64,000 nt of DNA from Planctomycetota bacterium (GTDB lineage: Bacteria > Planctomycetota > Planctomycetia > Pirellulales > Pirellulaceae): positions 1 through 64,000 of the forward strand of contig JAQCHP010000005.1 in the NCBI GenBank assembly GCA_027619595.1, read 5' to 3'. Each line of letters opens with the position of its first letter. Position 1 is the stretch's first letter. Below are positions 5,551 through 32,166 of this stretch, in pieces. The translations under genes were made by a program, and so were the position numbers. Below the pieces are notes generated by a model. The model was not told where the DNA came from. It worked only from the letters and a program-made list of their open reading frames with translations, and did no database searches.

Positions 5551-8500
5551 GTGCGAATCACCAATCTTTTTTCCCAGTATAAACAACCGCGGCAAATCAG
5601 TCGCAAGCGACATACCCAGAGAACCTTCGCCCAATCGATCGAATCCCTTGAGTCGCGTGTCGTCATGGCCGTCGCGACGTTTCAGGATGGACTCGGAGCG
5701 TACGCGGGCACGCAGGATACCATTCTGTTTTCCACGAACCCCGACGTCAACTTCGGCAGTGAAACCGGTATCAGTGTCGATCAGCAAGATGTGAACGGCG
5801 TCCGACAGGGCCTTTTGCGATTCGATGGAATTATTGGCGCAGGGGTCACCCAGATACCGGTCGGTTCTCAGATCAATTCGGCCACACTCACAGTTTCGGT
5901 CTTCAACGATTCGAATACTGCCATGCAAATGAGCATGTACCGAATGCGCAGCAATTGGAGCGCAGCAACGGCGACTTGGAACAGTTTTGGCTCGATTGGG
6001 GGTATACAAGCGTCACAAGGCGAAGTCGAAGGACTTCCTCCCGACGCCATTTTGTTCGATTCGTCGGTGGGAACGAAAACCTTCGACGTAACAACATCGC
6101 TCAAACATTGGGCGGCCGGCGAAACCAACTTGGGCTGGCTTTTTGAATCCGCTTCGACCAATGGGTGGGACTTTAACTCCTCCGAAGCCGATCCATCCAA
6201 CCGCCCCCGGCTGACCGTCGACTTCACGCCACCCCCAGCCGGTGCGACTGGGAGCGCCGAGTTCATTAACTTAATCCCAATGCATAGTGAAGGAGATGCA
6301 GGAACGACAACAGCGAATTTGACTGTCGCTCGGGCAGGAGGCACTAGCGGGACACTCAACGTTCCCTACACAATCACGGCTGGTACGGCGACTGCCAGTG
6401 ACTTCGTTGCCGCCGGGCCACTCAATTTGACTTTTCTGCCAGGCGAAACGCTAAAGACAATTCCCGTCACGATCAACGGCGACACATCCCTCGAAGGGCT
6501 AGAAACTATCAACGTCACAATGTCTGGAGCCATCGTTGCCGGTCGCAATGTGGCCACTCTGACCATCGCAGATGACGACGCGCTGATCAACGAAGTGCTC
6601 GCCAATGTTACCGACAGTGCGGGTGAGTCAAACCGCGATTTTGTCGAACTGCTCGGCACTCCCGGCGCTAGCCTTGACGGATATTTCTTTGTCGTCTTCG
6701 AGAGTGAAGAAGAAGAGAATGGCGGTACAGGGAGCGGGATCGCGGACTTAGTGGTGCCGCTAACCGGTCAAACCTTCGGCAGCAACGGACTGCTCGTTAT
6801 CACGGGCACGTCCTGGGCTTACCAATCGCAAAAAGATCCGGCTACGAACCAACTTCAACTGCCCGCCTTTGACGTGGCGGGCGGAATCCTGGAAGATTCG
6901 TCGCAGACTTACGCGCTAGTTCGCAGTCCAATCAGCCCAATCGTGCAGGGTACGGACTACGATACCCAGGGTGCCTATGAGAATAACCAAATCGGTGCGC
7001 AACTTTCGATCGGTACTGGCGTCGGCATACTTGACCAACTTCCTGCCGGTGCCCAAATCGTCGACAGTGTCGGAGTGGTCGAAGGTGGCGGCAATGACCG
7101 TGACCGCATCGCAACTGTCGTGGGTCACCCTGGCGTACACGTGCATCAGCCAATCGGCCGCCCAGGTGATAATGCCGCATCCGACGGAGTGAGCCGACGC
7201 GTGGGCGCCCGCGACCCGAATAGTATCGGAGTTTGGTTCAATGGCGACGTTTTTGATGGTGCAGCCGTCCCCTTGGCCTATGCCAACGGAACTCCTCAGA
7301 TTAGCGTGGTTGCGCCGGCCGGATCTGTGGTAACTCCGGGTGCGGCTAACACCTTGCGGAATGTCTTTTTTGACGTCAAAGCCGAAAACGTTGATGAAAG
7401 CGCCGGAACCGTGACCCTGACTGTAAGTCGATCGGATGCGACGACTTCCATGAGCGTGCAATACGCTACTTCGAATAGCACGGCAGTCGCCGGGGCCGAT
7501 TACACGGCCAAATCCGGGAACATCAACTTTCTCGTGGGCGAGACATCAAAAGATATAGTGATCGATATTTTGGGCGACTCGGTGGCCGAAGGTTTTGAGT
7601 CGTTCCGCGTAACTCTAAGCAATCCAACCACACCGTTCTTGATTACGTCCGGCGTTACCGTTGTCACGATTGTCGACGGAGATGTACTGGTTCGGTCGTT
7701 CCAAGACGACGTCGACGGCTATCAAGGTACAAAGGATACCTATCTTGATAGTTCGTTGCCTGATCTTGAATTCGGCTTCGCTTCCAGTGTCATCGCTGAT
7801 GAAGAACGAGGTGAGGTAGACCTTCAAAATGGGGATGCTCGACCGGTACAGGGACTGATCCGATTCGACGACATGTTTGGTACCGGTATTAGCCAAGTAC
7901 CAAACGGATCGAAAATCTTCAGTGCATTTCTCACGGTGAACGTCGTGAGCCCGAGTCCGCTGTCAAAGGTTCGTTTCTTTGCCATGCAACAGGGATGGGA
8001 CGAGGGCACCTCGACTTGGAGTTCCCCGCAGGGCTCGACTGGGGCTAGTGTCATCAATGGTGTTACTCCTGACGGCGTCGAGGCTTCCGCCGAAATCGAC
8101 GCGATCGTCATCGACCCCTCGGTAGCCGGATTGGTCGATATTCCACTGAACGCCGAGACAATTCAAGCGTGGGCGAATGGCAGCCTCCCGAACTTTGGTT
8201 GGGCGATTATTTCTGATTCCGCCGACGGTTGGTCATTCTCAAGCTCCGATGACTTCCTCAGCATAATTCCGCAACCTCCTAAGCTGACCATTCTCTATAC
8301 TGCGCCAACGGGCCAAGGAACTCTCGGGTTTTCCGATAGCAGTTTTACGGTCAATGAAAACGGGCAAGCGAGAGTTGCGGTACAGCGCGTGGGTGGACTA
8401 ACGGGTGCTGCTTCCGTCAACTATACCATTACGCCCATCACTGGTTCTGCGGCGGACATCACGGGATCGCTGAGCGGCACGCTGAATTTCGGCGATCCTT

Positions 8501-10059
8501 CAGTTACTTCGCGGGAAATTGTAATACCCATTGTCAATGACACGCTACTCGAACGTAACGAGTCGTTCACGTTGACGTTGTCTAATCCGAGCGGCGCAAC
8601 AATCGATGCCGGGCGCGCTACGACGATGTTGACGATTCGCGATAATGACTTTGTTCCTACAAGCGGCGGCATGCTATTAAGTGAAGTATGGATTAATTCT
8701 CCAGGCTTGGATGACAAACACGAATTTCTCGAACTCACCGGAACACCCGGAGCGGGCCTGGGGTCGTTGTATGTAGCGATCTTCGGCGGCGATATCGGTG
8801 AAGGAGAAGGATCTACGGACTTGGTAGTGGATCTAGGGACGTTCTTGAATGGGGCAAACGGTCATACCGTTGTGACCGCCCTGAATGACTTCGGTTTCCA
8901 GGTACCCGCTGGAGCAACAAGGGTGCCCCGCCTCGAACTCGACACTGAAATCGTCTCCAACGATACGGCGACCTACGCCTTGCTGTATAGCCCCAACGCA
9001 ACTCTCTTGACTGGGGCGTACGACTACGACTGGGACAACGATGGTTCGTTGGAACTGCCGACAGGTGTCGTGATCGTAGACTCCGTCGCTGTCAAGGACA
9101 ACGGCTTGACGGATCAAACTTATGGACCTGCAGCCAACGTCATCAACTCGGCGTTAAACCCGAACCTGTACGTCGCCGATGCGGTCAGCCGATTGCGAGG
9201 AAATACGTCAAGAAATAGTGCAGCAGCTTGGATGCACGGTGACCTGACTGCAGCCGGCGATGATGGATTGGTCTATTCACCGACCAATTCGATTGGCCTC
9301 CCATCACCCGGGACGGCCATGACGCCAGGTGAAGTGAATACCGGAACGCCGGCAATCAGTCCACTCGTCTCGCTTACCAGCGTCACTCCGGCCGCACACG
9401 TAGGTGCTGTGACGTTGAACTTCAGTGGCCCGGTTAGTCAAGTTACCATCGGCGATGGAAGCGCTGGTCCCACGGGGGCTGGTATCACGATCAGTAACCC
9501 GGACGGAACTCCAAACGGTCAGGTCAACTCCCTGCCGACGATTAGTGGCTTCGGAACTAACACGTTAACACTGACGTTTACCGGATCTGGAGTGGTGGGC
9601 GGACAATTGCCGGCGGGTCAATATCGGCTCAACTTTGTGGGCAACAGCATCATTGCAAACGGCCGCGCCGTCGATACCGCTAACAACGGCACCGTTACGG
9701 GCAGCAGTCACAGCGTGACGTTCACCACAACGCCGATCGTTACCACACCGGGCGACCTGAACGGTGACGGTGGCGTCGATGGCGCGGATGTCTCCGTCGT
9801 TTATTCGAGCTGGGGCGGTTCGGGGGTAGCTGACATCAATGGCGATGGATTCGTGGATGGCGCCGACCTGGCAGTTGTGTTTTCCAATTGGACCGGTGAC
9901 AGTTTAGCCACAAACAATGCGAAGCCTGCCGCGAAGCAAAACATATCGCTGAAAGGCAACGCTAGCTCCGTCGACGCGGTCATGTCGCAGGGGAATGAGT
10001 GGGCACCAACCACAGGTCGGCGCGGAGTGCGACCACGATCGCGACGGCTGACAGCTTAG
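5551..10059 (+). CDS. Giant modular secreted protein: DNRLRE, Calx-beta, lamin-tail-like and dockerin type I domains
   Basis: About 1,502 residues. After a basic N-terminus comes SLESRVVMA, a version of the planctomycete 'LE-R-LLA' motif seen in giant exported proteins. Approximate order: DNRLRE-like domain 41-225; Calx-beta 230-340; lamin-tail-like domain 345-580 (FVELLGTPGASLDG); Calx-beta 593-710; second DNRLRE 710-920; third Calx-beta 923-1033; second lamin-tail-like domain 1040-1260 (FLELTGTPGAGLGS); an Ig/Big-like domain 1270-1390; dockerin type I 1400-1450 with two calcium loops (DLNGDGGVDGADVS and DINGDGFVDGADLA). The order reflects an internal duplication. Probably a calcium-binding surface or matrix protein. 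I prefer GTG 5551 because GAGGA at 5538-5542 lies eight bases upstream; ATG 5536 is the alternative. Confidence 0.85.
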   Translation: MRITNLFSQYKQPRQISRKRHTQRTFAQSIESLESRVVMAVATFQDGLGAYAGTQDTILFSTNPDVNFGSETGISVDQQDVNGVRQGLLRFDGIIGAGVTQIPVGSQINSATLTVSVFNDSNTAMQMSMYRMRSNWSAATATWNSFGSIGGIQASQGEVEGLPPDAILFDSSVGTKTFDVTTSLKHWAAGETNLGWLFESASTNGWDFNSSEADPSNRPRLTVDFTPPPAGATGSAEFINLIPMHSEGDAGTTTANLTVARAGGTSGTLNVPYTITAGTATASDFVAAGPLNLTFLPGETLKTIPVTINGDTSLEGLETINVTMSGAIVAGRNVATLTIADDDALINEVLANVTDSAGESNRDFVELLGTPGASLDGYFFVVFESEEEENGGTGSGIADLVVPLTGQTFGSNGLLVITGTSWAYQSQKDPATNQLQLPAFDVAGGILEDSSQTYALVRSPISPIVQGTDYDTQGAYENNQIGAQLSIGTGVGILDQLPAGAQIVDSVGVVEGGGNDRDRIATVVGHPGVHVHQPIGRPGDNAASDGVSRRVGARDPNSIGVWFNGDVFDGAAVPLAYANGTPQISVVAPAGSVVTPGAANTLRNVFFDVKAENVDESAGTVTLTVSRSDATTSMSVQYATSNSTAVAGADYTAKSGNINFLVGETSKDIVIDILGDSVAEGFESFRVTLSNPTTPFLITSGVTVVTIVDGDVLVRSFQDDVDGYQGTKDTYLDSSLPDLEFGFASSVIADEERGEVDLQNGDARPVQGLIRFDDMFGTGISQVPNGSKIFSAFLTVNVVSPSPLSKVRFFAMQQGWDEGTSTWSSPQGSTGASVINGVTPDGVEASAEIDAIVIDPSVAGLVDIPLNAETIQAWANGSLPNFGWAIISDSADGWSFSSSDDFLSIIPQPPKLTILYTAPTGQGTLGFSDSSFTVNENGQARVAVQRVGGLTGAASVNYTITPITGSAADITGSLSGTLNFGDPSVTSREIVIPIVNDTLLERNESFTLTLSNPSGATIDAGRATTMLTIRDNDFVPTSGGMLLSEVWINSPGLDDKHEFLELTGTPGAGLGSLYVAIFGGDIGEGEGSTDLVVDLGTFLNGANGHTVVTALNDFGFQVPAGATRVPRLELDTEIVSNDTATYALLYSPNATLLTGAYDYDWDNDGSLELPTGVVIVDSVAVKDNGLTDQTYGPAANVINSALNPNLYVADAVSRLRGNTSRNSAAAWMHGDLTAAGDDGLVYSPTNSIGLPSPGTAMTPGEVNTGTPAISPLVSLTSVTPAAHVGAVTLNFSGPVSQVTIGDGSAGPTGAGITISNPDGTPNGQVNSLPTISGFGTNTLTLTFTGSGVVGGQLPAGQYRLNFVGNSIIANGRAVDTANNGTVTGSSHSVTFTTTPIVTTPGDLNGDGGVDGADVSVVYSSWGGSGVADINGDGFVDGADLAVVFSNWTGDSLATNNAKPAAKQNISLKGNASSVDAVMSQGNEWAPTTGRRGVRPRSRRLTA

Positions 10060-26511: not shown

Positions 26512-26634
26512 TTAAATCTCCGATACGCCCCGTTTGGACGGCGGGCCGGTCGACTGGACCTCGAGCACGGCATCGCTCATCCAGCAGCCCACATAGGGGG
26601 AGTTTCGCTGCTTCGTCAAAATCCAAATATAGGA
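26512..26634 (-). pseudogene. C-terminal half of a DUF4864-like gene, cut off by the mobile element
   Basis: On the minus strand, from base 26634, the frame reads S-YIWILTKQRNSPYVGCWM then SDAVLEVQ and ends at TAA 26512-26514. 'LxKQ...PYxGCWM-D-V' is the expected C-terminal end of DUF4864 proteins, as I know the family. The N-terminal half is at 31755-32166. Joining ...GGT from the right with TCC TAT ATT from the left gives a continuous frame (GEGS-YIWIL). Without the element the gene would end 118 bases upstream of the ECF sigma gene. Confidence 0.85.
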
Positions 26635-26656
26635 CCCCAGCTGTTCTCCGTGCCGT
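26615..26656 (-). other. Attachment site, left junction (recombinase 3' end / host gene)
   Basis: The proposed TC crossover is at 26633-26634 (GA on the plus strand). Sequence to the right (26635 upward) is element; to the left is host. The element side carries the half-site CGGAGAA (minus strand) nine bases from the core. The recombinase stop codon (TGA, 26616-26618) lies on the host side. Confidence 0.75.
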
Positions 26657-28559
26657 AGTTTCGTTGTGAACTCCACGGGTGGCCGGTTTTGGGGATGATC
26701 TTCACGTCGATCAGTTCCCGGCTGTCATCCTCGAAGCGGCAGATCATTTTGTCGATCAACTGGCGGACGACTTCCCCCTTGCGGCGGTTCTCGTTGCCTT
26801 GAACAGTTTCCAAGGCCGACTCATAAGCAGCGGCCAGTCGTTTCGATTCTTCCAGAACTTCGTGATACTGTTCGACCAGTGGTTCCAACTGGCCTTTCAG
26901 CTTTTTGATTTCGACTTCGGCCATGCCCATTTCGGCGTCGGCCCGTTCTCTTGCCATCTCGGTTTTGAGTGACTTGTATCGCTCAAACAGGCGGTCGAAG
27001 TCGGCTTGCTTTTCGGCCAGCTTCTCTTGCAGCATCTTGGCGTTGCTGGCGTAGGCTTCGTTGTAGATTTCTTCTAGCGTGATTTCGCCATACACGTCCA
27101 TCGTGTCTTGGTCGATGATGACTTCGCTATCGTCGATGTAGTGGATTCCTTGGGCCAGATTGGCCGTGATGAAGTCGGTCATCTTCATGTAGACGTAGTG
27201 CAGTTCGCACTCCTTCATCCAGCTTTCGGTGAACAGAGCATCGACCAGCGATGAGTTTTGATCGGCGGCCACCAACACGTTCAGCCGATGGCCGACTTCT
27301 TCCAAGTAGCATTCCAAGATTGGCTCAATCTCAGCATTCGGAACCCGAAAGCACTGGCAGCCGGTCTCGTTCTTCTTGCCGTTCACCTTGTAAGTTTTGC
27401 AGATATACCCTTCACAGGCTTTGTCGCCTGACAGTTTTTCGCCGCACCTGTGGCAGTAGAGCAGACCAGACAACCAGTGAGCCTCGCCCCGGTTCGTCTT
27501 CCGGTGAATCTCCCGGTCGTTCATTTTGGTCTGGACCTTCTCCCAGATTTCGACCGGCACGATTGCGTCGAAGACAGGTTCATCGGGCTGCACCCAATCA
27601 TCCGGCTCCCGCTGGCGACCGTTGATGCTGTCGCCATTCTTCTTGCGGGGAGCGGTGCGGTATTCGCCCTCGACGAACTCGCTGAACCGGCTGTTCGAGC
27701 GTTTGTTGTAGGCCGGCAGTCCGATGTAGACCGGATTGAGCAGCATCTTGCTAACAAACCCGCTCGACCATGCCCCGGCCCGGACGGGATCGACCTTCAT
27801 TGCTTTCAATCGTTCGGCGATCTTGTTGAAGCTGATCGTTTCGGTCGCATACCACTCGAAGATTTTCCGCACGGCTTCCAAGCGTTCGGTGCGGATCGAC
27901 GGAGCCAGATAGAACTTGTCGGTTGGGTCTTTCGCCGGGAAGTTTCCTTTGCCGTCGAAGCGTTCCTGTTTCCCATCGGGCCAGATCTTCAAGCGGTGGC
28001 TCCATCCTTCGATGACGACTCGCCACTTGTTCTTCTTGCCGCTCATGCAGACGACATCCAGACCGTAGGGAACCGGGCCGCCCGTCCATTCGCCGGCCTT
28101 GGCCTGCACGATCTTCTTGGACAAATCCCGGTCGGCCTTCACCTTCTGTTCTCGTCGGGACGCCAGTGAATTGACCGTGGTGGTCAGCACGGTGGCGTCG
28201 TCTTCGTCGGAGAGACAACGGTTCTCGATGATCGACCACAACCGGCAGCCGCCCTTGCGGAGCGTCGAAAGGAACTCGCCCCATTCATGCGGGCCGCTGG
28301 TTCCAAAGCGGTCCTGCGACTCGACCACGATCCAGTCGAGCATTTCGTTCCGCACCATGTCGAGCAGCAGTTGGAACTGCTCCCGCTTGTCGGCCTTGTC
28401 TCTGGACCCCACGTCCTCAAACAGGGGTGCAATATTCAAGTCGTGCTGTGTCTCGAACCGGCTGAATGATTTCTTCTGCCGGTCGTTGTCCTGTTTGTCG
28501 GTCGAGACTCGGATCAATCCGGCGATCCGTCCCGCTGGGAAGTTGTCGTTATGGGTCAT
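26616..28559 (-). CDS. Large serine recombinase (integrase) of the element
   Basis: 647 residues. The resolvase domain (~12-150) has the nucleophile in GLIRVSTDKQ (Ser19) and the active-site region IVVESQDRFGTS. A 'Recombinase' domain (~160-330) has GGPVPYGLDVV and SSGFVSKMLLNPVYIGLPAY. A zinc ribbon (~375-415) has YCHRCGEKLSG plus a later Cys pair (YICKTY, GCQCFRV). A coiled coil (~525-605, MLQEKLAEKQADFDRLFERY) follows, as in phage-type large serine integrases. The gene crosses the attachment core: residues up to Gly642 are element-encoded and the last five (PIFGF) come from host sequence. In the predicted circle the frame instead continues 65 codons through a basic tail to 31557. Confidence 0.93.
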   Translation of the reverse strand: MTHNDNFPAGRIAGLIRVSTDKQDNDRQKKSFSRFETQHDLNIAPLFEDVGSRDKADKREQFQLLLDMVRNEMLDWIVVESQDRFGTSGPHEWGEFLSTLRKGGCRLWSIIENRCLSDEDDATVLTTTVNSLASRREQKVKADRDLSKKIVQAKAGEWTGGPVPYGLDVVCMSGKKNKWRVVIEGWSHRLKIWPDGKQERFDGKGNFPAKDPTDKFYLAPSIRTERLEAVRKIFEWYATETISFNKIAERLKAMKVDPVRAGAWSSGFVSKMLLNPVYIGLPAYNKRSNSRFSEFVEGEYRTAPRKKNGDSINGRQREPDDWVQPDEPVFDAIVPVEIWEKVQTKMNDREIHRKTNRGEAHWLSGLLYCHRCGEKLSGDKACEGYICKTYKVNGKKNETGCQCFRVPNAEIEPILECYLEEVGHRLNVLVAADQNSSLVDALFTESWMKECELHYVYMKMTDFITANLAQGIHYIDDSEVIIDQDTMDVYGEITLEEIYNEAYASNAKMLQEKLAEKQADFDRLFERYKSLKTEMARERADAEMGMAEVEIKKLKGQLEPLVEQYHEVLEESKRLAAAYESALETVQGNENRRKGEVVRQLIDKMICRFEDDSRELIDVKIIPKTGHPWSSQRNYGTENSWGPIFGF

Positions 28560-28591
28560 CGGTCTGGTTTCATCGTCTATACAAAAGAGAA

Positions 28592-28623
28592 GCCCCCGTA
28601 GCCGACAGGGAGGCTATGGGGGC
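28592..28623 (-). terminator. Putative intrinsic terminator between resolvase and integrase genes
   Basis: On the minus strand a 12-bp stem (GCCCCCATAGCC with GGCTACGGGGGC, one G-T style mismatch) with a short loop is followed by TTCTCTTTT. It lies 37 bases after the resolvase stop and 32 bases before the integrase start. It would limit read-through from the resolvase promoter into the integrase, implying that the integrase has its own regulated expression or relies on partial read-through. Confidence 0.6.
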
Positions 28624-28660
28624 GGAACTCGCAGGAGGCAAACACTTCGGAATTTCCGAA

Positions 28661-29272
28661 TTAGTTTTTTTGCAACGCCGGCTCGGTCTTCAACACGTCG
28701 TAGATGGTGGGCCTCGATAGCCCCGTCGCCCTTGCGATGGCGGCCACCTTTTCCCCTTCGGCCTTCATCCGGTGAATCAGCCGAATCTGTTCGTCATTGA
28801 CCTTGATCCGTCGTCCCTTCTCCGATCCGCCCCAAGTCTTCCCCTTGGCACGGGCCGCCGCCTGACCGGCCAAAATCCGCTCCGCACGGACTTCGGTTTC
28901 GTAGGCGGCCACGCTCGCCAGCACATTCGCCATGAGCCGGCCAGCCGCCGTGGACAGGTCCAGCCCATCACGCAAGCTGACCAGTCGCACGTTCAATTCC
29001 GTCAGTTCGTCGAACAGGGCGGTCAGCCCTTTGGCGGTTCGTCCCAGCCGATCCAGCCGCCACACGGCCACTTGCTGAACCTCGCCGGATCGAACATGCC
29101 GCAGCAACCGGGTGAAGGCGGGCCGCTCCATCGTCTTGCCGGTGAAGCGGTCCCGATACCAGCGAACCTCTCCTTCCTGCTGGGCCGCCCATCGCCGTAA
29201 TTCCGGCTCTTGGCTGGCGACATCCTGCGACTTGCTGGACACCCGCAGATAGATGGCGATGGTCTGGCTCAT
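28661..29272 (-). CDS. Small serine recombinase / resolvase (Tn3-Pin type)
   Basis: 203 residues. The N-terminal resolvase domain has IAIYLRVSSKSQ with the nucleophile Ser, then QVAVWRLDRLGRTAKGL (conserved Arg cluster) and STAAGRLMANVLASVAAYE, leading into the long E helix (RAERILAGQAAARAKG). The C-terminal helix-turn-helix is MKAEGEKVAAIARATGLSRP followed by TIYDVL. Length and order are those of Tn3 resolvases and Pin-type invertases. In a circular or multimeric element it could resolve dimers, or control a DNA inversion, but no inverted crossover sites were noticed. It is on the same strand as the integrase and precedes it by 101 bases. It is divergent from the PEP-CTERM gene. Confidence 0.93.
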   Translation of the reverse strand: MSQTIAIYLRVSSKSQDVASQEPELRRWAAQQEGEVRWYRDRFTGKTMERPAFTRLLRHVRSGEVQQVAVWRLDRLGRTAKGLTALFDELTELNVRLVSLRDGLDLSTAAGRLMANVLASVAAYETEVRAERILAGQAAARAKGKTWGGSEKGRRIKVNDEQIRLIHRMKAEGEKVAAIARATGLSRPTIYDVLKTEPALQKN

Positions 29273-29621
29273 GCTCGGCCTCGGTGCTGATCCCCCCTGA
29301 TTCTCTGAACGATGAGGATAGGTTAGCGAAAGTGGCCGTTTGTGTCAATAGTGGATTACACAAGACGCTTGACGGACATAATGCTCGCAGCGAAGCCGGA
29401 AACGAGCGTAATTTGGCGTTTTTGGCATACTGTATCGAGACTTTACACTTTTCGGACCTGCTGGAGCGGTTTGGCGAGGCGGGAAAATTTCTCGGATTTA
29501 CCGATTCTGCCTATTGTCCCCCCCCCCCCTGCGTGGTATCATAGCCGTTCGTTAATTAACGCCATCGCTGCCGGATTCGCAGCGGGCTAGATTCCAAGAC
29601 CTACAACACGGGAGAAGCAAA
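29273..29621. other. Divergent intergenic region with a 12-C tract, inside the element
   Basis: No gene supported. It must hold promoters for the resolvase (minus) and the PEP-CTERM gene (plus). A run of 12 C at 29518-29529 lies about 90 bases before the PEP-CTERM start, followed by a palindromic GTTAATTAAC at 29550-29559. A homopolymer of this length is slippage-prone. ACGGGAGAAGC at 29609-29619 is the ribosome site of the PEP-CTERM gene. I saw no sigma-54 type promoter that some PEP-CTERM genes use. Confidence 0.6.
29518..29529. repeat. Poly-C tract (12 C)
   Basis: Twelve consecutive C on the plus strand, in the promoter-proximal region of the PEP-CTERM cargo gene. It may alter promoter spacing by slippage, but that is inference; the count itself can be inflated by sequencing. 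Confidence 0.8.
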
Positions 29622-30245
29622 ATGATGCGGGCAAGTCAACTGGCGGTGGCGTGCGTGGCGGTGCTGTTCGCTACGGCGGGGCAAGTCCAGGCGGACATCA
29701 TCACGATTGATTTTGACGGATTCACACCCACCGGCAGTTTCGGTGGCGGTGTAGAAGATGGAATAGTAGTAGGCGGGATTAGCGGTCCTGTCGCAGTCAG
29801 CGGGATCTTCCTAGGCCCATTAAGCGGAATAAATTCATTGCACCACGGAAGTGGGTCTTTAGCGGTCTTTTCCTTGTCGGGCTTTACTGGAGAAACATTC
29901 ACACTGTCCAGTTTCTATGCTGGATCTACATATGGTGGTGGCGAACCGTTGACTTTAAGTGGATTTCTTGGTGGCTCACTGGTTGGCACCGACGTGTTCA
30001 GCCCAAACCCTCCCGGCAGCTACTTATCATTCACACCAACAAATCTCTCGGGCGTAACGATGGATACCTTGGTATTCGATATGGGTGCAGCAGGACCCGG
30101 ACCCACCAATATTGATGATATTGTGTTGAATGTAAATGTTCCCGAACCTTCCTCCCTCGCTTTGTTCGGCATCGGTGCATGCGTCGCAGGGCTTGGAGCC
30201 GCCCGTCGTCGCCGACGTGAAAAACAACAAGAGACCGTAGCCTGA
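29622..30245 (+). CDS. PEP-CTERM sorting domain-containing exported protein
   Basis: 207 residues. N-terminal signal peptide (LAVACVAVLFATAGQVQA), a Gly/Ser/Thr-rich beta-type middle part (ITIDFDGFTPTGSFGGG; FTLSSFYAGSTYGGGEPLTL), and a C-terminal PEP-CTERM tail: VPEPSSLALFGIGACVAGLG followed by an Arg cluster (AARRRRREKQ). PEP-CTERM proteins are thought to be processed by an exosortase and linked to extracellular polymer. The middle part resembles low-complexity planctomycete surface proteins with no catalytic motif. It is the only plus-strand gene in the element and appears to be cargo. ATG 29622 is preceded by GGGAGAAG; a second ATG follows immediately. Confidence 0.9.
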   Translation: MMRASQLAVACVAVLFATAGQVQADIITIDFDGFTPTGSFGGGVEDGIVVGGISGPVAVSGIFLGPLSGINSLHHGSGSLAVFSLSGFTGETFTLSSFYAGSTYGGGEPLTLSGFLGGSLVGTDVFSPNPPGSYLSFTPTNLSGVTMDTLVFDMGAAGPGPTNIDDIVLNVNVPEPSSLALFGIGACVAGLGAARRRRREKQQETVA

Positions 30246-30282
30246 TCGGGTGAACACAACAGTCAATGAAATCGGGCGACCA

Positions 30283-30501
30283 TCATGTTCGTCCGTTTTT
30301 CGTTGCTGCGATTGAGAACGTCGGCAGCACCGGACGCACCTGCGGCTTGGCCGGCCTCACGGCCTGCGTGAGCGGCTTGCATTGGGGTGGTTTTTTCGGC
30401 TTGGGCTGGGGCAACTTCGACAGACCTTTCACGGCCTTGTCGTCGTTGAGCCACAACCCTTCCCGAATTGCCAGCCATTCTTGAAACGTCATCATTGTCA
30501 T
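30283..30501 (-). CDS. Small basic protein of the element, function unknown
   Basis: 72 residues that I do not recognise by function. It opens MTMMTFQEWLAIREGLWL and then NDDKAVKGLSKL, an amphipathic N-terminal helix pattern I associate with short planctomycete hypothetical proteins, followed by a Pro/Lys/Gln-rich basic tail (PQPKPKKPPQCKPL). It follows the HUH protein gene by eight bases on the same strand, so it is probably co-translated with it. AGGA lies close to the first ATGs (30501 or 30495). A DNA-binding or accessory replication role is possible, but only from context. A longer frame on the same strand (30263-30526) lacks such features. Confidence 0.6.
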   Translation of the reverse strand: MTMMTFQEWLAIREGLWLNDDKAVKGLSKLPQPKPKKPPQCKPLTQAVRPAKPQVRPVLPTFSIAATKNGRT

Positions 30502-30509
30502 TCCTGTAT

Positions 30510-31553
30510 TTACGCCCGTCGGTCACAAAATCGGACTAAGCCAGCCCTCTCGAAACACGCCCACACCATGCCTGCAACCGCATCTAAATGGTTGCTAGTG
30601 CTAGCGTTCGTGGGGGAACGGTTTCGGGGCGGTCCACGGGGAAAAATCGGCTCACATACCCGGCTAATAACGGGCAGGACCGACGCCGTCACGCTCTGGC
30701 GGTGGTGACGTGCGAGCGGCCACGATGGCGTCGGCTCCCGTTGTTCGTCTGCTGGCGGCTCGTCCGTCTGTTGGTCTTCATCCTGCCGGCCTTCCGCATC
30801 GGCCGCCAACTGTTCCTCGCTCGGCTGCCACCTTCGCCGCTGGGGCGGCTCAGGCGGCCTCCACTCCTCGATGTAGCTTTCGCCAAACCACGCCCGCCGA
30901 CACTCCTTCCATAACTCCCCTTTGGACTTCACGAAATAACCGCCGAACTGCCCCGACAGGTTCAGCCCCAGCCCCTTCTTGAACAGCAGAACCTCCCGCT
31001 CCCCGTCCTGCACGTCGGCCATGTCCTTGACCGTGTAGCGAGTGATGGCGGCTACCGACCGGATGTTTTCACAGTGGGCCAGTTCCGCCGTGGTTCCGCT
31101 GGCCTTCTGCACGATCTTCCCCAACACGTCTGCCGGATCGTCCATGCTGGTCCTTATGAGCAGATGCAGATGGATCAGGTTGTTTCGTTCGATCTCCCGC
31201 ACAAAGTAAACAGCCAGTTCCATCGCTCTTGTCTTGGCAAAGTAGCCTGCTTGCCGCCGTAGTTTTTCATGGAAGTCCCGAAACTCTGAAACCGTGCGGA
31301 CTTCGCTGAACTTGACCACTGCTTCATGGGTCGGCTGGGTATACCGATGGTTCATATTCAGGATTCCACACTCCCTCACCGACCAATTCTGCCGAGATTC
31401 GATAGATGCCGATGGGGTCCGGTTGATGTGGTTCCCCCAAGGAAGCTCCCATCGTTGCCGGGGCTGGGCTTGGTAATAACAGGGAACCCTTGGTTCTTCG
31501 TCCTCCCATTGATCGAATTGTTCGTTAGTAACCGCCTGACAGACCATCTCCAC
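30510..31553 (-). CDS. HUH-type replication / relaxase-like protein
   Basis: 347 residues. The central part contains NLIHLHLLIRTSMDD, whose H-L-H is the metal-binding HUH motif of rolling-circle replication initiators and related transposases. It is followed about 45 residues later by ITRYTVKDM, a likely catalytic Tyr with Lys four positions away (Y-x-x-K). Upstream are FSEVRTVSEFRDFHEKLRRQ and AMELAVYFVREIER, matching the strand-helix plan of Rep domains. The C-terminal third is polar and Pro/Arg/Glu-rich (WRPPEPPQRRRWQPSEEQ). It would nick one DNA strand to start rolling-circle replication of the circular form. Starts: GTG 31553 or ATG 31547. IS91-like transposase is the alternative, less likely at this length. 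Confidence 0.75.
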   Translation of the reverse strand: MEMVCQAVTNEQFDQWEDEEPRVPCYYQAQPRQRWELPWGNHINRTPSASIESRQNWSVRECGILNMNHRYTQPTHEAVVKFSEVRTVSEFRDFHEKLRRQAGYFAKTRAMELAVYFVREIERNNLIHLHLLIRTSMDDPADVLGKIVQKASGTTAELAHCENIRSVAAITRYTVKDMADVQDGEREVLLFKKGLGLNLSGQFGGYFVKSKGELWKECRRAWFGESYIEEWRPPEPPQRRRWQPSEEQLAADAEGRQDEDQQTDEPPADEQREPTPSWPLARHHRQSVTASVLPVISRVCEPIFPRGPPRNRSPTNASTSNHLDAVAGMVWACFERAGLVRFCDRRA

Positions 31554-31556
31554 CGC

Positions 31557-31753
31557 TCACACACGTCCTTTCCTCTTGCCACCGTGCTTACAAGAGTGTC
31601 GTGAGCCAGATTTTTTCGATGAGTCTGGGGAAAATTTCTTTTGAGAGGATGGTTTTCGTCGTGATGTGTGTTTCTTTGTAGGCCCGCTTCCACGCCTACG
31701 CCGGCCCTCAGGCTTGCTCCCGCTGGGAAGCGTCAGGCAGAGAAGTTCATAAA
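31557..31753 (-). other. Displaced 3' tail of the recombinase frame (basic, 65 codons)
   Basis: In the integrated state this is an orphan open frame between the disrupted host gene and rep. In the predicted circle it fuses in frame to the integrase: ...SWG followed by LYELLCLTLPSGSKPEGR, then a Lys/Arg-rich tail ending HGGKRKGRV at TGA 31557-31559. 20 of the 65 residues are Lys or Arg. The stop is three bases before the GTG of the HUH protein. I list it as part of the excised-form integrase gene, not as a separate gene. Confidence 0.65.
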
Positions 31754-31775
31754 GAACCTTCGCCGTGGAGCAGGC
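31735..31775 (-). other. Attachment site, right junction (host gene / element)
   Basis: The proposed TC crossover is at 31754-31755 (GA on the plus strand). Host DUF4864 sequence lies at 31756 upward; the element begins below. The element side carries TTCTCTG (minus strand) nine bases from the core, mirroring CGGAGAA at the other end. Confidence 0.75.
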
Positions 31776-32166
31776 TGACCAATACACGGGCTGAGTCATC
31801 ACGCAACACCGGCGTCCCCACAACGACTGTACCGGATCGGCACAGGACATTGTAGGGAGGACGGCGGACCATCTCCGCAAACCGCCCGATCGGCCCTGTT
31901 TGTACCAAATTGGCCGGCGACGCGAAACAGATACACTGGATCAGGCCAAAACGATCGCCCTGCGCCAAACTATCGATCTGGAGCTTCACCACCTGCTCGG
32001 GGGTTAAGTCGGGATGTGGATAGACCAAGGACGCCGTCGTATCAACGGTCGTGAGTCCTAGCGGGTGCAGGGGAAACCACCACTGAAATGTCCATGTGAC
32101 TACATAGAAAAGGCCAACCACCAACAGCGTTGGACGCCAGAAGTGGAAGTTTGCCCGTCCATCCAT
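31755..32166 (-). pseudogene. N-terminal half of the DUF4864-like gene, disrupted by the element
   Basis: From ATG 32166: a membrane anchor (PTLLVVGLFYVVTWTFQWWF), then LTPEQVVKLQIDSLAQGD, CFASPANLVQTGPIGRFAEM and VRRPPYNVLCRSG, which is the N-terminal and central part of DUF4864. The frame runs to GEGS at the junction, then into element DNA and stops at 31747, giving a 139-residue truncated product. The missing end is at 26512-26634. The intact protein would be about 177 residues, membrane anchored with the domain outside. The domain's function is not known to me. Confidence 0.85.

Follow-up and report, generated by a model that had tools for sequence, protein, structure and literature searches.

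A small integrative element in a planctomycete genome, with a divergent HUH Rep-type protein and a large serine recombinase gene that crosses its predicted attachment site

The window (the whole stretch of DNA that was analysed, 64,000 nucleotides of a Pirellulaceae genome assembly) contains a complete integrative element at positions 26650-31766, which comprises 5,115 bp as a predicted circle. Read in the sense of its rep gene and starting at the left attachment site (attL), the element carries the tail of a large serine recombinase (LSR) gene, rep, an open reading frame of 72 codons, a PEP-CTERM gene on the opposite strand, a resolvase gene, and the LSR gene, which extends to the right attachment site (attR). 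The features of the element and of the host gene around it are as follows.

26512-26649, minus strand: 3' part of the interrupted host gene (in-frame joining ...LLHGEQLGSYIWILTKQ...)
26616-28559, minus strand: LSR gene, with Pfam matches to Resolvase (2e-15), Recombinase (5e-17) and a Zn ribbon
26650-26651: attR core dinucleotide AC (right end in rep sense); five attR end with ...CGAAACTACGGCAC and then diverge
28661-29272, minus strand: small serine recombinase of the resolvase/invertase type (203 aa), with Pfam matches to Resolvase (2e-37) and HTH_7
29514-29542, plus strand: promoter-like site ahead of the cargo gene; its -35/-10 spacer contains a C12 tract
29622-30245, plus strand: exported PEP-CTERM cargo protein (207 aa; Pfam PEP-CTERM, 8e-7), with a variable mature part at 29702-30138
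30283-30501, minus strand: small conserved ORF (72 aa, MTMMTFQEWLAIREGLWL...), with homologues downstream of rep
30510-31553, minus strand: HUH Rep-type endonuclease (rep), with HLH at 31164-31172 and YTVK at 31026-31037, matched by PF23343
30663-30745: candidate nick-site/origin hairpin in the 3' end of rep, with a 12-bp inner helix kept in five copies
31557-31764, minus strand: detached 3' end of the LSR gene, which would encode a basic C-terminal tail and continues the LSR frame only in the predicted circle
31765-31766: attL core dinucleotide AC (left end in rep sense)
31767-32166, minus strand: 5' part of the interrupted host gene (DUF4864-like, weak)

Of two Rubripirellula MAG contigs recovered by a scan of genome contigs, L007 has a full copy, 91% identical, and L008 a partial one. 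The window and L007 are about 91% alike throughout 26650-31766, save for the central part of the cargo gene, and their flanks differ. All five left ends compared (window, L007, L008, L010, L051) start with ACGGC(G/A)AAGGTTCTTTATGA and diverge before the AC, and all five right ends compared (window, L007, L008, L051, L074) finish with CACAACGAAACTACGGCAC. The consensus left and right ends overlap by exactly 2 bp, so that AC is all that the five attL and five attR share as a core among six copies, each with its own flank. Strand exchange by large serine recombinases takes place at a 2-bp core; AC is therefore the likely crossover dinucleotide. A longer core, ACGGC, was considered and dropped, since the AC past ACGGC is retained in 5/5 right ends and a junction placed at AC gives back the host frame. 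At its right end L051 has CTACGGCACGGCGAAGGTT, equal to the predicted attP, with extra bases beyond the end.

When the flanks in the window are joined at AC, a single open frame of about 179 codons runs across the junction, and intact homologues of the joined protein span this junction in G033 (46%), G141, G132 and G011; the element therefore interrupts a host gene. The targets differ among the copies, and the choice of target is thus a loose one. The predicted attP junction was absent from IMG/VR when searched for, and no circle or replicating form was observed.

Whole-genome searches revealed decayed copies in G006, G044, G082 and G214, and distant but intact Reps were found in G200, G176, G123, G444, G006 (a second locus), G183 and G665. 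L033 and L034 repeat the gene order of Rep, small ORF, cargo region, resolvase and LSR, with an LSR 29% and a Rep about 20% identical to those of the window. In L050 and L052 the Rep, the small ORF and the resolvase are kept, and the place of the LSR is taken by a tyrosine integrase that lies immediately upstream of rep; this adjacency is the same arrangement as that of LSR and rep in the predicted circle. Two further loci pair the Rep with a tyrosine integrase (L054 and L055, the latter also with an HTH_17 excisionase-like gene). The elements form a planctomycete family of their own, and its Rep module is found with tyrosine integrases as well. One member of the Rep family (L053, 10161-10916) has no integrase nearby and lies near type I restriction methylase and reverse transcriptase-like genes (named by eye). 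In the complete genome G082, two oppositely oriented element remnants were found within about 4 kb of each other (L011, 6400-7600 and 9000-10500).

The serine integrase claimed by an earlier note on this DNA is a genuine large serine recombinase, and the second, small serine recombinase is real as well. In its integrated form the LSR comprises 647 aa, of which 636 codons are encoded by the element and the last ~11 residues and the stop codon are contributed by host DNA. Resolvase, recombinase and Zn-ribbon domains are present, the Zn ribbon with 24.8 bits against a cut-off of 25.3 bits. The LSR is 96% identical to that of L007 (dN/dS 0.065), and the resolvase has a dN/dS of 0.062 in the same comparison, with homologues at the same place in L033, L034, L050 and L052. 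With the LSR and the att sites, the element has its own integration/excision module, as is expected of an IME.

The small ORF has homologues in L007, L011, L034, L050 and L052, and in L033 as recognized by position and motif. It is kept in all well-preserved elements (30283-30501 in the window, 9360-9587 in L033, 9456-9578 in L050) and has no match in Pfam; it is perhaps a Rep partner or a DNA-binding accessory protein.

The frame at 30510-31553, read in the earlier note as a divergent HUH endonuclease, is a real gene; it lies on the minus strand, which had been overlooked. The predicted Rep comprises 347 aa from the GTG at 31553 (alternative ATG starts at 31547 and 31355), and contains both motifs that had been pointed out, IHLHLLI and RYTVK. 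Nine intact homologues, which represent two planctomycete classes, were aligned; ten columns show no change, among them H126 and H128 of the metal-binding HUH motif and Y171 and K174 of the catalytic YxxK motif. The joint occurrence of HxH and YxxK is more than chance, because they are invariant across the nine homologues. Between the window and L007, the HUH core (roughly residues 65-222) has a dN/dS of about 0.08 and the N-terminus one of 0.13, and the C-terminal 115 codons, at about 0.8, are not clearly under purifying selection. The values for the core indicate purifying selection on this part of the protein. That rep has decayed or lost its function and is a passenger of the integrase might be supposed from the many decayed copies (L002/L009, L003/L010, L011, L051) and from the fusion of rep to the resolvase through an internal deletion in L008; against this stand the low dN/dS of the core and the catalytic residues unchanged in 9/9 members, and we regard it as very improbable. 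Through the deletion in L008 (9588-12399), the first 172 codons of rep run into the end of the resolvase gene; the cargo is lost, and the LSR and both ends are intact.

The best family match of the Rep is PF23343 (REP_ORF2-G2P), which matches 9/9 Reps at E <= 1 (best E 8.8e-6) and the window Rep at E about 0.0094-0.0095 (16.7 bits), with 0/9 reaching the gathering cut-off of 27.8 bits (best relative, 26.4 bits). Other Pfam matches of the window Rep below the cut-off are RepSA (E 0.021) and DUF6156 (E 0.035). Among the families that the earlier note had named for a profile search, Rep_1, Rep_2, RepL and IS91 (Y2_Tnp) gave no Pfam match at E <= 1; gpII of M13 fails to align with the Rep family. 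No match for the window Rep was found in PHROGs or NCBIfam, and none in plasmid, phage and IMG/VR searches (with the window Rep and with one relative), which agrees with the divergence proposed earlier. A profile search of solved structures gave no credible relative. Within the whole assembly (5.18 Mb, 96% complete) this ORF is the sole match to PF23343.

An alignment with VP4 of microvirus phiMH2K places PHWHVLIF on IHLHLLIR and VARYAAKK on ITRYTVKD, with poor statistics. In the AlphaFold models the order of strands and helices fits an HUH fold, but the pLDDT, 37 for the full Rep and 51 for the core, is too low to prove it. Foldseek returned nothing significant, and in VIA-align HUH chains (IS608, IS200, ISDra2 TnpA and SIRV1 ORF119; Z 6.2-6.6) tie with unrelated ferredoxin-like folds.

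The phage-type affinity of the Rep, i.e. REP_ORF2-G2P as best family and both motifs aligned with microvirus VP4, would also be expected of a satellite or remnant of an ssDNA phage that uses a G2P/VP4-like Rep for replication and a helper phage for packaging. The ORFs of the element include no capsid or morphogenesis gene, its PHROGs matches are limited to the recombinases, and the window Rep has neither a PHROG match nor a relative among phages or in IMG/VR; we consider such an origin improbable.

The Rep might instead act mainly as a relaxase. The element would then be an IME that replicates little by itself, its excised circle being nicked at an oriT and passed on by a helper conjugation system. 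RCR initiators and relaxases functionally overlap in IMEs (PMC5704250), the element is small and lacks transfer genes, and its copies and remnants across several Pirellulaceae genera show that it has spread. However, no coupling protein is encoded in the element and no Pfam relaxase family matches the Rep. No VirB4 was found in this genome (assembly 96% complete), and any helper would therefore need to come from elsewhere. On balance, we find a role chiefly as a relaxase rather doubtful, and prefer a Rep that initiates rolling-circle replication.

A nick-site hairpin, which the earlier note had suggested looking for within the element, has a conserved candidate at 30663-30745, in the poorly constrained 3' end of rep. 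Over five copies 96.7% of the cells of its 12-bp inner helix are paired, and the DNA fold has a z of -3.35 on the plus strand, but there is no compensatory change and other hairpins of the element rank above it. The strongest hairpins lie at 28450-28669, near the gap between the resolvase and LSR genes, and one of them is terminator-like. The strong hairpin at 28585-28669 between these two genes reads GCCCCCATAGCC...GGCTACGGGGGC, followed by a T-rich stretch; it looks like a terminator, or else is an alternative candidate for the origin.

The cargo gene was compared in five copies (window, 29622-30245; L007, 3998-4663; L011, 6407-7201 and 9588-10433; L051, about 8050-8800). The signal peptide and the C-terminal anchor, with its VPEPSSLALFGIGACVAG...RRRRRE end, are kept and near-identical among the copies, whereas the mature parts are unrelated to one another and the breakpoints coincide with the domain borders. 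The poly-C tract in the promoter-like site (29518-29529) has 12 C in the window, where it is the sole run of at least 10 G or C in 64 kb, and 8-10 C in L007, L011 and L051; a phase-variable cargo promoter is possible. The swap of mature domains and the variation of the poly-C tract look like a diversification of surface proteins, and this hints that the elements may diversify proteins at the surface of their hosts.

Besides the strand, two features had been missed by the earlier note, namely the exchange of serine and tyrosine integrases described above and an LSR gene that crosses attP. In the integrated state the LSR frame exits the element, and its stop comes after 11 codons of host DNA in the window and within a few codons in L007 and L008; in the predicted circle the frame runs through attP and gains 69 codons in each of these copies (3/3). 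The tail in the window, TAKVLYELLCLTLPSGSKPEGRRRRGSGPTKKHTSRRKPSSQKKFSPDSSKKSGSRHSCKHGGKRKGRV, is basic and ends with a TGA stop at 31557-31559, and in the predicted circle this stop is followed by the start of rep at a distance of 3 nt (GTG) or 9 nt (ATG). Of the 43 substitutions in the tail stretch, 28 affect a third codon position when read in the LSR/rep frame (p 2e-5), an excess that suggests translation of the tail. The tail has a dN/dS of 0.33-0.37 at a low dS, so that part of its conservation may be that of att-site DNA rather than of a protein. At the tentative attP of L033 the LSR would gain only a few codons, and the long tail may therefore be limited to the subfamily of the window.

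We tentatively propose, at somewhat short of even odds, that the overlap of LSR gene and attP serves as a switch set by the state of recombination: the circle would make a 705-aa LSR and the Rep from one operon, and integration would give the LSR a new tail and silence rep. Alternatively, the read-through may have no function and reflect a frame that happens to be open because the att-site DNA beneath it is conserved, with the integrated and the circular LSR being equivalent. By our own estimate (61/64 per codon), a run of 67 codons has a chance of about 4% of being free of stops, the low dS and the dN/dS of the tail would suit such a frame, and the relic copy L003/L010 has a 1-nt deletion inside the tail. 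Set against this are the excess of third-position changes in exactly the frame of the LSR tail, and the retention in three copies of the frame, its basic composition and the stop just before rep; we therefore treat a chance frame as a real possibility, though not a probable one. If the proposed switch is true, one crossover would set both the form of the integrase and replication, and the switch would be a bacterial serine-recombinase counterpart of the archaeal 'suicidal' integrases.

Taken together, we favor, with a probability of roughly 0.7, a small integrative element of the IME or integrative-plasmid kind, which would integrate and excise by its LSR, replicate as a rolling circle by its HUH Rep, and couple the Rep to the circular state by the LSR gene that spans attP. 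The LSR would recombine the attP of the circle with attB sites that are of loose specificity and have AC as their core, and would later excise the element as a circle of 5,115 bp. The Rep would nick one strand of this circle via Y171, with H126 and H128 holding the metal and K174 assisting, and nicking would drive rolling-circle replication and perhaps export of the strand through a helper. Because the LSR gene crosses attP, the circle is predicted to encode the 705-aa LSR with its basic tail and, 3-9 nt behind its stop codon, rep, so that the Rep would be co-produced with the full-length LSR. Upon integration, the LSR would end in host codons and rep would be separated from the LSR operon; with this upstream transcription lost, replication would be damped while the element is integrated. 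The small resolvase probably resolves multimers, and the exported PEP-CTERM protein would be cargo.

The occurrence of an HUH Rep-type protein and a large serine integrase in one integrative element, as proposed by the earlier note, is thus borne out, with ends, att core and split host gene mapped. The pairing, which had been thought unusual, is a common one: in IMEs, e.g. those of streptococci, a serine or tyrosine integrase is commonly accompanied by an HUH initiator or relaxase of the RCR type (PMC5704250). The streptococcal IMEs are alike in being small integrative elements with serine or tyrosine integrases and an HUH protein related to RCR initiators, and a serine-integrase element among them likewise disrupts a dispensable host gene (PMC5704250). 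They differ in having Rep_Trans/Rep_2 where the planctomycete element has a REP_ORF2-G2P-like Rep; the latter element also lacks a coupling protein, has a conserved resolvase and small ORF, and has an LSR gene that crosses attP. No description of such small integrative elements in Planctomycetota was found in the literature; the family now has base-exact ends, and its branch of Rep proteins is without a name in current family libraries.

The Rep of microviruses (VP4) and the inovirus-type Rep (PF23343) share with the planctomycete Rep the HxH and YxxK motifs in the same order and a profile that 9/9 members match, but the planctomycete Rep stays below the cut-off and resides in an integrative element without virion genes. 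Elements of actinomycetes of the pSAM2 type, with RepSA, unite an integrase and an RCR initiator in one integrative unit. The present element resembles them in this combination and in a weak match to the RepSA profile (E 0.021), and differs in that this match is below the cut-off, that there is no transfer gene, and that the integrase is a serine recombinase.

An attP inside the integrase gene has been stated to be exclusive to archaeal tyrosine integrases, and the suicidal integrases of the SSV type are tyrosine recombinases that are split into two inactive parts upon integration (PMC8371274). In our literature searches, with subscription literature mostly outside their coverage, no serine recombinase gene crossing its own attP was found. 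The likeness to the SSV type lies in an attP within the integrase gene, here in the predicted circle of three copies, and in an integration that alters this gene; integration itself could thereby change the form of the serine integrase and shut off replication. In contrast to the SSV type, the planctomycete LSR is a serine recombinase that keeps its catalytic and DNA-binding domains, and only its C-terminal tail changes. The element thus is of a known kind, an IME or integrative plasmid-like unit, and what is new is the planctomycete family, its divergent HUH Rep, and an LSR gene that spans attP.
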